In this document: one piece after another, positions 6,817 to 13,831 of the stretch
Numbering within the stretch: position 1 is the first letter of the stretch
How the letters are laid out: the number at the start of each line of letters is the position of its first letter
NCBI RefSeq assembly: GCF_001517935.1
Contig: NZ_LOQF01000003.1
Location: 1 to 64,000 of the forward strand
Source: Sneathia sanguinegens
GTDB taxonomy: Bacteria; Fusobacteriota; Fusobacteriia; Fusobacteriales; Leptotrichiaceae
DNA: 64,000 bases
Direction: 5' to 3'
Translations under genes and position numbers: made by a program
Notes under the pieces: generated by a model
Told to the model about the DNA's origin: nothing
The model's input: the letters and a program-made list of their open reading frames with translations, nothing else
Databases searched by the model: none

Positions 6817-8736
6817 ATGTACTATAATCTTCAAATAGGTAAAAGAAATATGTTATTTACATATTATCATGAAGATGATATAGAACTCGGAACATATTGT
6901 AAGGTAGAATATAATCATAAAATTGAAGAAGGAATAATTGTTCAAAAAAAAGAACAAGTAAGTGCTAAATTTGAAATAAAAAAAATATTAGAAATATTGG
7001 ATAAAAAATTGGATAAAAATCTTTTTTCTTTGATGCAGTGGATACATTCATACTATTTAGAACCTTATGGTAATTTACTACCTTTAATAGAAGAACCAGC
7101 TGAGCAAAAATTAAAGGAATTCAAGGAAAAGAAAAAGAAAATAAAAGATTTTGAATTAACAGAAGAACAAGCAAAAGTATATTGTGATATAAAAGAATCA
7201 GATAGTAAGGTACATTTAATAAATGGAGTAACTGGTAGTGGAAAGACACAAATATATATAAAATTAATAAAAGATGCTATAAAAAATGGCGGAGGGGCTA
7301 TTTTATTAGTCCCAGAAATAAATTTAACAAGTCAATTAAAAAGTAATTTAGAAACTTTTTTGGGTGAAAGTGTAGCAATATGGCATAGTAAATTGAGTAA
7401 AAAAGACAAGTATAAGTATCATAAGCTTTTAAATGAAGGAAAGATAAAAGTGGTACTTGGAGCAAGATCAGCCATATTTACAAATATACAAAATTTGAAA
7501 TATATAATAATAGATGAAGAACATGAAACTACATATAAGCAAGATGAAGCACCAAGATATCATGTGAAGAATGTAGCAATAAAAAGAGCCTTAATTGAAA
7601 ATGCTAAGGTTGTTTTAGGAACAGCTACTCCTTCTTTTGAAACAATGTATCAGGTAAAACAAGGATATATTAGCCAACATATTTTAGAAAAAAGATATAA
7701 TGGAGCTAGTTTACCTAGCTATGTAATTAAAGATATGACAGAAGAAAGAGGAAATATTTCAAAAGATCTTTTACTTGCAATAAATGATAGGATAGAAAAA
7801 GATGAGCAGGTAATATTATTGCTTAATAGAAAGGCATATTCAATATTTATAGAATGTAAAGATTGTAAAAATATAGTTGAGTGTAAACAATGTACTTTCA
7901 AATTGATATATTATAAAAATAATACTTTGAAATGCAATCAATGTGGTATGGTATATAAAATGCTTGAAAAATGTGAAAAATGTTCAAGCAATAAATTGGA
8001 AAAAATTGGTATAGGTACAGAAAAGGTTGAAGAACAGCTTAAAGAAATATTTGATGAAGAATTAATATTAAGAATGGATGCAGATTCTATGACTACAAAA
8101 AATAAGATAGATAAAGCATACAGAGATTTTTTGAATAAGAAATACAAAATTTTAATAGGGACACAAATATTAGCAAAAGGATTTCATTTTCCAGATGTTA
8201 CCTTAGTTGGTGTGTTGAATGCAGATCAAATGTTAAATTTTCCAGATTATAGATCTTATGAACGTTCTTATCAATTAATAACTCAAGCAGCTGGGAGAGC
8301 TGGAAGAGGAGATAAAAAGGGAGAAGTTTTTATACAAACATATAATAAAGACTCTATTTTAATAAAAGCTATTGTAACTTCTGACTACAATTTAATATAT
8401 ACTAATCAAATGGAAGCAAGGGAAAAATTATTTTATCCTCCATTTTCAAAACATATTAAAATACTTTTTACAGATATCAATGAAAAAAGATTAGAAGAAG
8501 TAACACAACAATATTATGAATATATTTTGAATAAACTAAATTTATATGCTAAAATATATCCGATTGCTAAATGCTTAGTATATAAGGCATCTAAAAGATA
8601 TAGATTAAATATAAATTTAATATATGATAGAAAAAATGATAAAGAAGTTAAAAGTGTATTGAGGAATATATTAGCTACAAGAAACAAATTGATAACAAGA
8701 ATATTAGTAGATGTAGATCCTTTGAATATGCTTTAG
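6817..8736 (+). CDS. priA: Primosomal protein N' (replication restart helicase)
   Basis: PriA recognises stalled forks and D-loops and reloads the replicative helicase. A degenerate N-terminal DNA-binding domain is followed by a superfamily-2 helicase core: Walker A GVTGSGKT near residue 138 and DEEH Walker B near residue 232. Paired zinc-binding clusters appear as CKDC, CKQC, CNQC and CEKC around residues 347-391. Motifs V/VI are seen as GTQILAKGFHFPDVTLVG and QAAGRAGRG. At 639 residues it is slightly shorter than the E. coli protein. It lies 7 bases after the PBP gene and ahead of def and fmt, a common priA-def-fmt order. Confidence 0.96.
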   Translation: MYYNLQIGKRNMLFTYYHEDDIELGTYCKVEYNHKIEEGIIVQKKEQVSAKFEIKKILEILDKKLDKNLFSLMQWIHSYYLEPYGNLLPLIEEPAEQKLKEFKEKKKKIKDFELTEEQAKVYCDIKESDSKVHLINGVTGSGKTQIYIKLIKDAIKNGGGAILLVPEINLTSQLKSNLETFLGESVAIWHSKLSKKDKYKYHKLLNEGKIKVVLGARSAIFTNIQNLKYIIIDEEHETTYKQDEAPRYHVKNVAIKRALIENAKVVLGTATPSFETMYQVKQGYISQHILEKRYNGASLPSYVIKDMTEERGNISKDLLLAINDRIEKDEQVILLLNRKAYSIFIECKDCKNIVECKQCTFKLIYYKNNTLKCNQCGMVYKMLEKCEKCSSNKLEKIGIGTEKVEEQLKEIFDEELILRMDADSMTTKNKIDKAYRDFLNKKYKILIGTQILAKGFHFPDVTLVGVLNADQMLNFPDYRSYERSYQLITQAAGRAGRGDKKGEVFIQTYNKDSILIKAIVTSDYNLIYTNQMEAREKLFYPPFSKHIKILFTDINEKRLEEVTQQYYEYILNKLNLYAKIYPIAKCLVYKASKRYRLNINLIYDRKNDKEVKSVLRNILATRNKLITRILVDVDPLNML

Positions 8737-10879: not shown

Positions 10880-11686
10880 ATGGGAACGGGATATGGCCTC
10901 ATACTAGCCATTTCAATAATTTTAAATATATTTCTATATTTAAAAAATAGGAAAATAAAAAAAGAAGAAATTGTAGAAATACAAAAAGTAAAAGAAGAGA
11001 ATAAATTTAATAATGTAAGTTCAGTTACAGTAAAAGAAATTATGACACCAAGAACATCTATATATGCAATAGATAAGAAAACTACACTTAAAGAAAATCT
11101 TAAAGAAATAATTGAACAAGGCTTTTCAAGAATTCCAATATATAATGAAACCATAGATGATATTTGTGGTATTCTATATACCAAGGATATACTTGGAGCA
11201 AATTTGAATAGAAAAGTAGAAGCATATATAAAAAAAGCAATATATGTTCCTGAAACAATGAATATATCTAAGTTATTTGAAGAATTTAGATTAAAACAAA
11301 ATCATATGGCTATAATTATAGATGAGTACGGTTGTACAGCTGGTATAGTAACTATAGAAGATATTTTAGAAGAATTTGTTGGTGAAATAAGAGATGAATA
11401 TGATATAGAAACAGACAATATAGTTAAGGTTTCAGAAAATATTTATGACATTTTAGGAGAAACAACAGTAGATGAAATAGATGAGCAAATAAAAGTTAAT
11501 ATACCTTTATCTGAAGAATATGAAACTATCTCAGGTTTTGTTCAATATAAATTAGGTAAGGTAGCAGAAGAAAATGATCAATTAAAAGAACAAAACTATA
11601 TTATAAAAATCATGAAGGTAGAAAATAAAAGAATAATTAAATTGAGAATGATATTGTTGAAGGTAGAAGGGGAAGAAAATGAGTAA
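10880..11686 (+). CDS. CorC/HlyC-like CBS-domain protein
   Basis: This is a hemolysin C/CorC-type protein. Family members are linked to magnesium or cobalt efflux and membrane association, but the exact role is often unknown. One N-terminal hydrophobic segment (residues 5-20) is followed by a charged linker. Two CBS domains come next (from VKEIMTPRTSIYAIDK to ITIEDILEEFVGEIRDEYD), then a C-terminal CorC_HlyC domain (YDILGETTVDEIDEQI and VQYKLGKV). The DUF21 transmembrane domain of the larger relatives is absent. At 268 residues it matches the short CorC form. The stop overlaps the apt start by 8 bases. Confidence 0.85.
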   Translation: MGTGYGLILAISIILNIFLYLKNRKIKKEEIVEIQKVKEENKFNNVSSVTVKEIMTPRTSIYAIDKKTTLKENLKEIIEQGFSRIPIYNETIDDICGILYTKDILGANLNRKVEAYIKKAIYVPETMNISKLFEEFRLKQNHMAIIIDEYGCTAGIVTIEDILEEFVGEIRDEYDIETDNIVKVSENIYDILGETTVDEIDEQIKVNIPLSEEYETISGFVQYKLGKVAEENDQLKEQNYIIKIMKVENKRIIKLRMILLKVEGEENE

Positions 11687-12209
11687 AGTTGAAGTTGAAA
11701 AATTAAGTAAGATGATTAGAAGTATACAAGATTTTCCAGAAAAGGGAATACTTTTTAGAGATATAACAACAGCTTTAAAAGATAAAGAAGGATTAAAGCT
11801 AATAATAGAAGATTTTACTAATAGATATAAGGATAAGGGCATAGATTATGTGTTAGGAGCAGATGCAAGAGGATTCATATTTGGTGCAGCAATAGCATAT
11901 AATATAGGTGCAGGCTTTGTTCCAGCAAGAAAAGTTGGTAAATTACCAGCTGATACAATAAGAGTTGATTATGAATTAGAATATGGGATTAATAGTATAG
12001 AAATGCATACAGATGCTATTCCTAAGGGAGCTAAGGTCCTTATAGTAGACGATTTATTAGCTACTGGAGGGACAGCAGAAGCTATGGTAAAATTAGTCGA
12101 AATTGCAGAGGCAAAAGTTTATGAATTAGCCTTCTTAATTGAATTAGTTGACTTAAAAGGTAGAGAAAAATTACATAATAATGAAGTATATTCAATACTT
12201 AAATACTAG
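11679..12209 (+). CDS. apt: Adenine phosphoribosyltransferase
   Basis: Apt salvages adenine by transferring it to PRPP to form AMP. The N-terminal IRSIQDFPEKGILFRDITT is a strong family signature, and the PRPP-binding loop VLIVDDLLATGGTAEA lies near residues 121-136. Length (176 residues) and C-terminus look complete, so the downstream transposase-like gene has not truncated it. It starts inside the end of the preceding CBS-domain gene. Confidence 0.96.
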   Translation: MSKVEVEKLSKMIRSIQDFPEKGILFRDITTALKDKEGLKLIIEDFTNRYKDKGIDYVLGADARGFIFGAAIAYNIGAGFVPARKVGKLPADTIRVDYELEYGINSIEMHTDAIPKGAKVLIVDDLLATGGTAEAMVKLVEIAEAKVYELAFLIELVDLKGREKLHNNEVYSILKY

Positions 12210-12220
12210 AAAGGAAATAA

Positions 12221-12655
12221 ATGTTAAGAGAACATAATCATTCAGCATTTTCACTACATTATGAATTAGTTCTGGTTACAAAAAATAAAATAGAAATATT
12301 TACTGATGAGATTGTGCAAATTTGTATAGAAATTTTTAAGACGATAGGTTTTAGTTATCAAGTTAATTTTTCAAATTTACATTATGAAAAAAATCATTTG
12401 CATTTTAAATTTGAAGCTTATCCAACTACTAATTTAACTAAATTTATAAATGCATTTAAAAGTTCAACTAGTAGAAAGTTAAAAAATAAGTATCCAGAAA
12501 TAAGAGAAAAATTGAATGGTACAGCTTTATGGGAAGCAAATTACTTTTTGATGACAACAGGAGTTACATCAAAGGATATGGTATTGCACTACATTGAAGA
12601 ATATATAAAATGTGATGAAATTTATCATGAACATGGTGAAGAATGTTCTGATTAG
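12221..12655 (+). CDS. IS200/IS605-type HUH (Y1) transposase, single gene without visible IS ends
   Basis: This 144-residue protein has the Y1 transposase fold pattern: an N-terminal strand HYELVLVTKNKIEIFTDEI, the HUH metal motif as HLH at residues 59-61 (EKNHLHFKFEA), and a helix LTKFINAFKSSTSRKLKNKYP. Then come the LWEANYFLMTTG strand and a C-terminal helix with candidate nucleophile tyrosines (Y124 and Y128 in HYIEEYIK). Catalytic residues appear intact. It lies only 11 bases after apt and 8 bases before coaE, with its own aaagga ribosome site. That leaves no room for the subterminal hairpin ends of an IS200 element, and both neighbours are full length. I infer a domesticated or fixed copy (RAYT-like in arrangement) rather than a recent insertion. 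Its function is unknown. Confidence 0.85.
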   Translation: MLREHNHSAFSLHYELVLVTKNKIEIFTDEIVQICIEIFKTIGFSYQVNFSNLHYEKNHLHFKFEAYPTTNLTKFINAFKSSTSRKLKNKYPEIREKLNGTALWEANYFLMTTGVTSKDMVLHYIEEYIKCDEIYHEHGEECSD

Positions 12656-12663
12656 GTGATAAT

Positions 12664-13248
12664 ATGGTAATAGCTATAACTGGCGGAATATGTTGTGGAA
12701 AGACTACTGTTTTAAATGTTTTAAAAGAATTAAACTATGAGGTTTTAAATGTTGATGATATAAGTCATCAAGTTTTGGAACAAGATGAAGTAAAAGAAGA
12801 AATAAAGCAGAAAATTTCTACAACTGTTTTTTGCTATAATAAAATAGATAGAAAAAAATTAGGAGCTATAGTTTTTTCAGATAAAAAGAAGCTTAAAATT
12901 TTAAATGAAATAATGCATGAAAAAATTATAACCCAAATGCTTAAAGAAATTAAAAAGGTTGAGAAGAATAAACTTGTATTCTTTGAAGTTCCCCTTTTAT
13001 ATGAATTGAATTTAGAAAAATATTTTGCTGCAGTGATATTAATATATACTAATAGGCAAACTCAAATAGAAAGATTAATGAAAAGAGATCATAAAAATAA
13101 AGAACAAGCAGAGGCAATTTTATCTAAGCAAATTGATATAGAAGAAAAGAAAAAAAGAAGTAAATATATAATAGAAAATATGGATATATCTAAAATTAAA
13201 GGACAAATAAAAGATATATTGGAAAGGATAAAATATGAAAATAACTGA
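12664..13248 (+). CDS. coaE: Dephospho-CoA kinase
   Basis: CoaE phosphorylates the 3'-hydroxyl of dephospho-CoA, the last step of coenzyme A synthesis. The P-loop is GGICCGKTT (residues 7-15), followed by the family's VDDISHQVLE segment and the lid region with FEVPLLYELNLEKYF and RLMKRDHKNKEQAEAI. At 194 residues it is normal. It overlaps engB by 14 bases, so translation is probably coupled. Confidence 0.94.
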   Translation: MVIAITGGICCGKTTVLNVLKELNYEVLNVDDISHQVLEQDEVKEEIKQKISTTVFCYNKIDRKKLGAIVFSDKKKLKILNEIMHEKIITQMLKEIKKVEKNKLVFFEVPLLYELNLEKYFAAVILIYTNRQTQIERLMKRDHKNKEQAEAILSKQIDIEEKKKRSKYIIENMDISKIKGQIKDILERIKYENN

Positions 13249-13831
13249 GGCTACATATCTAAAATCTGTTGTTCATAAAAAAGAATATCCAAAAGAAAGA
13301 AAATTAGAATTTGCCTTTATTGGGAAATCAAATGTTGGAAAATCTTCACTTATTAATACATTAACTAATAGAAAAAATTTAGCAAGGACAAGTAAAACAC
13401 CGGGTAGAACACAATTAGTTAATTTTTTTGATATTAATAAAAAGATATTTTTCGTAGATTTACCAGGTTATGGTTTTGCTAAAGTACCATTAGCGGTTAA
13501 AAAAAATTGGGGTAATATTATTGAAACATATTTAGCAAGTGAAAGAAAAAAAATAATTTTCTTGCTTTTAGATATAAGAAGAATTCCTTCTCAAGAAGAC
13601 ATAAATATGTTGGAATGGTTGGAGCATTATAACATAGAATACTATATTATTTTTACAAAAAATGATAAAGTTTCTAATAATGAAAGAGCTAGACAATTAA
13701 AAGAAATAAAGAAAAAATTAGTTTTTGATAATGGGGATGTTTTCTTTCATTCAGCTTTAACTAAAAAGGGAACAGAAGAAATTTTGAATTTCATTGAAGA
13801 AAGGCTAGAAGAAAATGAAAAGGATATTTAG
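13235..13831 (+). CDS. engB: Ribosome-biogenesis GTPase EngB/YsxC
   Basis: EngB is an essential GTPase in assembly of the large ribosomal subunit. G1 is GKSNVGKSSLIN, the G2 region has TSKTPGRTQLVNFF, G3 is DLPGYGFA and G4 is TKND; the 198-residue length is typical. It overlaps coaE upstream and the DUF2207 gene downstream by 17 bases, placing it firmly in this operon. Confidence 0.95.
   Translation: MKITEATYLKSVVHKKEYPKERKLEFAFIGKSNVGKSSLINTLTNRKNLARTSKTPGRTQLVNFFDINKKIFFVDLPGYGFAKVPLAVKKNWGNIIETYLASERKKIIFLLLDIRRIPSQEDINMLEWLEHYNIEYYIIFTKNDKVSNNERARQLKEIKKKLVFDNGDVFFHSALTKKGTEEILNFIEERLEENEKDI

Follow-up and report, generated by a model that had tools for sequence, protein, structure and literature searches.

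A captured and vertically kept IS200/IS605-type Y1 gene that probably works for its fusobacterial hosts

The window analysed here is a stretch of 64,000 nucleotides from Sneathia sanguinegens (contig NZ_LOQF01000003.1, positions 1 to 64,000), in which a small gene for a Y1 protein, called tnpA below, lies between apt and coaE. The features of the locus are as follows.

10880..11686, + strand: CorC/CBS-domain gene, overlapping apt; the corC-apt order is kept across the family
11679..12209, + strand: apt, adenine phosphoribosyltransferase, full-length upstream neighbour (NCBIfam apt models)
12221..12655, + strand: tnpA-like, probably domesticated Y1 gene (IS200/IS605 TnpA-like), 144 aa (ORF, Pfam/NCBIfam, alignment)
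12395..12403, + strand: HUH motif H59-L60-H61, with H59 and H61 invariant in 9/9 orthologs
12590..12592, + strand: codon of Tyr124 at the catalytic position, invariant in 9/9 orthologs and aligned with the canonical catalytic Tyr
12602..12604, + strand: codon 128 (Tyr here), where canonical proteins have the metal-binding Gln, which is found in 0/9 orthologs
12611..12652, + strand: Cys/His tail C131-x4-H136-x-H138-x3-C142, a putative metal-binding knuckle (ortholog alignment)
12664..13248, + strand: coaE, dephospho-CoA kinase, full-length downstream neighbour (TIGR00152, 149 bits)
13235..13831, + strand: engB/ysxC GTPase gene (TIGR03598), located after coaE in 5/5 apt-type species

The tnpA reading frame is intact, with an ATG start and 144 codons, and is preceded by a Shine-Dalgarno-like sequence of its own, AAAGGAA. 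The gaps are 11 nt from the apt stop at 12209 to tnpA and 8 nt from tnpA to the coaE start at 12664; a GGTGA overlapping the tnpA stop is probably the ribosome site of coaE. The first-pass annotation had described an intact Y1 gene with this spacing, its own ribosome site and an HLH motif, and all of these are confirmed, the motif being H59/H61. Its claim that both neighbours are complete also holds, since apt matches its NCBIfam model through the final position (176/176) and coaE spans model positions 1-184 of 188, so that neither is truncated. The gaps leave no space for end hairpins. Hairpins with arms of at least 10 nt were absent from both tnpA junctions, and the junction folds were not clearly better than those of shuffled sequences (z of -1.9 and -1.6). 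Considering that no junction hairpin was found and that the neighbours are full length, the IS ends are absent. A search of the window for RNA families returned no match.

The product matched Pfam Y1_Tnp (PF01797) over 119 residues (E 2.4e-28, 99 bits) and scored 101.7 bits against the NCBIfam IS200 transposase model, for which the cut-off is 55. In the PDB it has sequence matches to IS200/IS605 transposases. The AlphaFold2 monomer was predicted with the TnpA fold at a mean pLDDT of 83.8 and with residues 131-144, the tail, disordered; a Streptobacillus ortholog was predicted with less confidence (pLDDT 72), again without a folded tail. When the model was compared with the PDB using Foldseek, ISDra2, IS608 and related TnpA structures came first and one RAYT far lower. 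Most alignments had a long RMSD, and dr_0177 (2fyx) aligned at 2.8 Å. As TnpA helices are exchanged in the dimer, we attributed the long RMSD to helix placement.

To define what distinguishes the protein, we compared nine orthologs with 105 canonical (mobile) homologues. Both groups share H59, H61, Y124, K21, P68, K80, W104 and G114, whereas I26, K63, E105, F109, S117, H123, C131, H136 and C142 are fixed in the orthologs and rare in the canonical proteins. The Gln at Tyr+4 is present in 103/105 canonical homologues, the two exceptions being truncated or frameshifted at that position, but in none of the orthologs, where position 128 varies among Y, M, I and K, with Lys in Streptobacillus. In IS608 the equivalent Gln131 is a metal ligand and essential for transposition (PMC6006769). 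Of the two candidate tyrosines named at first, Tyr124 therefore stands as the invariant residue at the catalytic position, while Tyr128 falls away as a variable residue at the lost Gln position. Lys63 lies two residues after the HxH motif and, based on beta-strand periodicity, should face the active site. In the tail, C131, H136 and C142 are invariant in 9/9 orthologs, and five species have His and the other four Cys at position 138; the mobile homologues do not have this tail. Because position 138 switches between two common zinc ligands, the tail sequence suggests metal binding.

At a threshold of E below 1e-25, an ortholog was found in 9/33 family genomes, one copy each, including Oceanivirga miroungae (G013) and Streptobacillus notomytis (G022). 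When 98 Fusobacteriota genomes were searched with a profile, the same nine came back at 250-257 bits, whereas the next best matches, canonical IS copies, reached at most 140 bits; no ortholog was detected outside this nine-genome clade. The nine genomes, one of which (G007) seems to be Caviibacter, form exactly one clade with support 100 in an outgroup-rooted PriA tree, and a PriA+Apt+CoaE tree without outgroup gave the same groups. The ortholog tree, built leaving out the Cys/His tail and the Gln column, was likewise monophyletic with support 100. A contig profile scan with the ortholog alignment returned Oceanivirga miroungae and Streptobacillus notomytis, the rest being canonical IS copies; the contig scan with a single TnpA protein as query gave no match. 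No relative above 60% identity in plasmids or phages was among the matches listed, and the plasmid and phage matches listed end near residue 127-133 of TnpA. In the host genome, the apt-locus gene was the sole intact Y1 gene found. The near-identical copies with hairpin ends that the first-pass annotation would have taken as a sign of an ordinary IS were absent, and only two broken canonical fragments were found besides. As a separate observation, about 95 N-terminal residues of PriA (window 6817-8736) align with PriA of the tnpA clade and not with that of most other family members.

The gene has two addresses. Five species have the order corC-apt-tnpA-coaE-engB, with TnpA 61-72% identical between the window and the other four, so that the apt-tnpA-coaE order is kept in relatives. 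The four Streptobacillus-genus species instead have tsf-pyrH-frr-mreB-tnpA, and in one of them (G014) tnpA starts 2 nt after the mreB stop. The corC-apt order is conserved in the whole family, and coaE is located away from apt in family genomes without tnpA behind apt; therefore, the apt-coaE adjacency arose with tnpA. Judged from these gene orders, apt-coaE does not appear as an ancestral operon that was later invaded, and the earlier wording of an "apt-coaE operon" has to be given up in that sense, as the two genes adjoin solely with tnpA between them. Empty apt-coaE junctions, which had been named as a sign of recent insertion, were found in none of the 33 family genomes. Either tnpA moved its address once or the two placements came from one source, and ortholog monophyly favours a single origin. 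A TPR gene near tnpA in both subclades was considered as shared ancestral synteny and dropped, as three apt-type genomes and one Streptobacillus have it at another place. Family genomes carry two or three MreB paralogues (e.g. G000:C2:130582-131616 and G000:C9:31111-32124), one of which tnpA follows in Streptobacillus.

Selection was estimated as dN/dS by the NG86 method in comparisons between species, where dS is near saturation in several pairs. Between Streptobacillus species, tnpA gave 0.056-0.125, with third-position changes dominating its divergence (33/45 in one pair); in the same comparisons mreB gave 0.06-0.21, tsf 0.11-0.13 and frr 0.02-0.10. For the pair of the window and its congener, the ratio was 0.115 for tnpA, an approximate value with dS near saturation, 0.133 for apt, 0.13 for corC, 0.11 for engB and 0.23 for coaE. 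The check suggested in the first-pass annotation thus gave 0.06-0.13, like neighbouring housekeeping genes, and by these substitution patterns tnpA is under comparable purifying selection. The proposal of a captured, vertically kept gene is strongly supported by its single copy, its confinement to one clade, its order in five species, its purifying selection and the lack of IS ends. Vertical inheritance, fixed places, purifying selection and no mobility are marks of a domesticated transposase that the gene shows.

Taken all together, we consider it likely, with some room for doubt, that tnpA encodes an immobile, host-domesticated Y1 protein that was captured once, has a rebuilt active site and binds single-stranded nucleic acid. 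An IS200/IS605-type tnpA would have been captured once in the ancestor of Oceanivirga, Streptobacillus and, presumably, Sneathia and Caviibacter. It would then have lost its IS ends and come under ordinary operon expression, following apt in one subclade and mreB in the other, to be retained by purifying selection. The TnpA fold and the surface that binds single strands and hairpins may well have been retained, while the active site seems to have been rebuilt by loss of Gln at Tyr+4, with Lys63 beside HxH and His123 beside the Tyr, so that Mg-dependent transposition would no longer be carried out. The Cys/His tail probably binds zinc, and the cellular ligands of the protein may be single-stranded DNA or RNA structures. 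Since the gene was captured once and is inherited like a housekeeping gene, it probably serves the cell and not a transposon. Speaking against this reading, the address differs between subclades, so that no single operon role fits both; neither a target sequence nor a partner was found.

Whether Tyr124 still nicks or ligates by means of an altered metal site is, on the residue pattern, about an even question. Invariant H59, H61 and Y124 fit retained catalysis, whereas Lys63 and the loss of Gln fit its loss. Accordingly, of the "nuclease with a host role" proposed at first, the domesticated Y1 protein stands and the nuclease label is unproven, the metal-site Gln being lost in 9/9 orthologs.

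The domesticated protein could be a catalytically retired, nucleic-acid-binding regulator that recognises DNA or mRNA hairpins, perhaps those of the operons it belongs to, with the Cys/His tail as an added zinc knuckle for binding or dimer contacts. We regard this as a real possibility that falls somewhat short of an even chance. The loss of the Gln ligand in all nine orthologs, the Lys fixed after HxH on the same strand face, the second Lys at the Gln position in Streptobacillus, and the invariant Cys/His residues with position 138 changing only between His and Cys are all consistent with it. However, H59, H61 and Y124 are unvarying across nine divergent species, and a conserved hairpin at the gene junctions is absent.

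The same invariance of HxH and Tyr fits an active single-strand nuclease or ligase with a changed cofactor, acting at replication forks or on incoming DNA, in which HxH together with a ligand from the tail or His123, or Lys63 as an electrostatic substitute, would support Tyr124 chemistry. A connection of IS608 TnpA with replication forks and with the beta clamp has been described (PMC6006769), but Gln131 is essential for IS608 transposition (PMC6006769), and substrate repeats were not found in a 413 kb sample; this form can be held only tentatively. The fuller enzymatic proposal, that a Y1 enzyme with a rebuilt metal site (Gln lost, Lys63 and His123 fixed, Cys/His zinc tail) carries out Tyr-mediated processing of single-stranded DNA or RNA with a different cofactor as a clade-wide housekeeping function, we rate as doubtful.

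The apt-locus protein might instead mobilise in trans the TnpB-only elements of its genome, in which tnpA is broken. There are two such elements (1270 bp), 99.8% identical to each other, that carry tnpA remnants only and are about 98% identical in the sister species, and no intact Y1 gene other than the apt-locus one was found in the genome. However, 7/9 clade genomes, including Streptobacillus, keep the gene without TnpB, the tnpA remnant of the element is a different Y1 subtype (YIENQ), and the end hairpin of the element is absent from the window. As TnpB occurs only in the window genome and its congener, service to TnpB cannot explain clade-wide retention, and we consider this role improbable. 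The element copies lie at L363:4170-5439 and L364:3446-4715 (G000:C2 and C1), with those of the sister species at L359 and L360 (G001). Between the sister species the element is about 98% identical, against only about 70% for host proteins such as TnpA and PriA; lacking an intact tnpA itself, it gives the impression of recent mobility or transfer. Another TnpB gene (379 aa; L362:2392-3775, G000:C3 near 66400-67775) is preceded by a broken canonical tnpA, itself similar to the IS type to which the domesticated gene is nearest, and an element of the sister species (L361:3786-5216) matches it at 85% DNA identity. A defence role was also considered and rejected, as PADLOC matches were at chance level only.

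We think it very improbable that the protein is a RAYT-like nuclease maintaining dispersed REP-like palindromes. Like many RAYTs it is single-copy and vertically kept, but the Y---NP signature is missing (Y124-IEEY) and the RAYT model NF047646 scored 22.5 bits against a cut-off of 80. The search for dispersed palindromes was negative: in 413 kb, about one third of the window genome, there were no non-low-complexity 16-mers with at least 5 copies and no repeated hairpin stems with more than 2 copies, and a 378 kb Streptobacillus sample had no 16-mer above 5 copies and no dispersed palindromes. The comparison with RAYTs made at first thus applies to the domesticated Y1 state and not to signature, model score or palindromes. 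Separately, G014 (Streptobacillus-genus; L034, L325-L342) had about 1,400 20-mers present 4-5 times in 378 kb, suggesting a long, low-copy repeat family. An ordinary or recent IS200 insertion that fell between apt and coaE by chance, as the Pfam and NCBIfam call of an IS200 transposase would allow, is scarcely credible for a single-copy gene without ends, in the same place in five species 61-72% identical, under purifying selection and present in 9/9 genomes of the clade.

RAYTs, with a role linked to REP palindromes, are the main known case of domesticated Y1 transposases. If the preferred reading of a host-domesticated Y1 protein is true, the gene was domesticated independently, starting from the IS200 side, in one ancestor indicated by the species tree; its active site has changed, and there are no repeats for it to maintain. 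It would be a natural experiment on the fate of a transposase once transposition is removed, in a small and easily tested protein. The open-access literature searched contained no description of it. Compared with IS200/IS605 TnpA (TnpAY1 subclass 1.1; IS608, ISDra2), the protein shares the fold, the HUH motif, the catalytic-position Tyr, W104 and most core residues, but has no Gln at Tyr+4 (Y---Q), has WE in place of WS, carries a Cys/His tail, lacks subterminal hairpin ends, and is single-copy and vertically inherited. With RAYT/TnpAREP (class 2 TnpAY1) it has in common the domesticated single-copy Y1 state and the WE motif, as in some RAYT subclasses; it differs in having no Y---NP, no REP sequences found and another tail, and its model scores place it with the IS200 type (101.7 bits) rather than RAYT (22.5 bits). 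TnpAY1 subclass 1.2 of Cyanobacteria and Bacteroidetes is similar in being near the IS200 type and of low copy, with a C-terminal addition and no IS ends. That subclass, however, keeps Y---Q--HH, whereas here the Gln is lost in 9/9 orthologs, the tail is rich in Cys and His, and the hosts form a fusobacterial clade.
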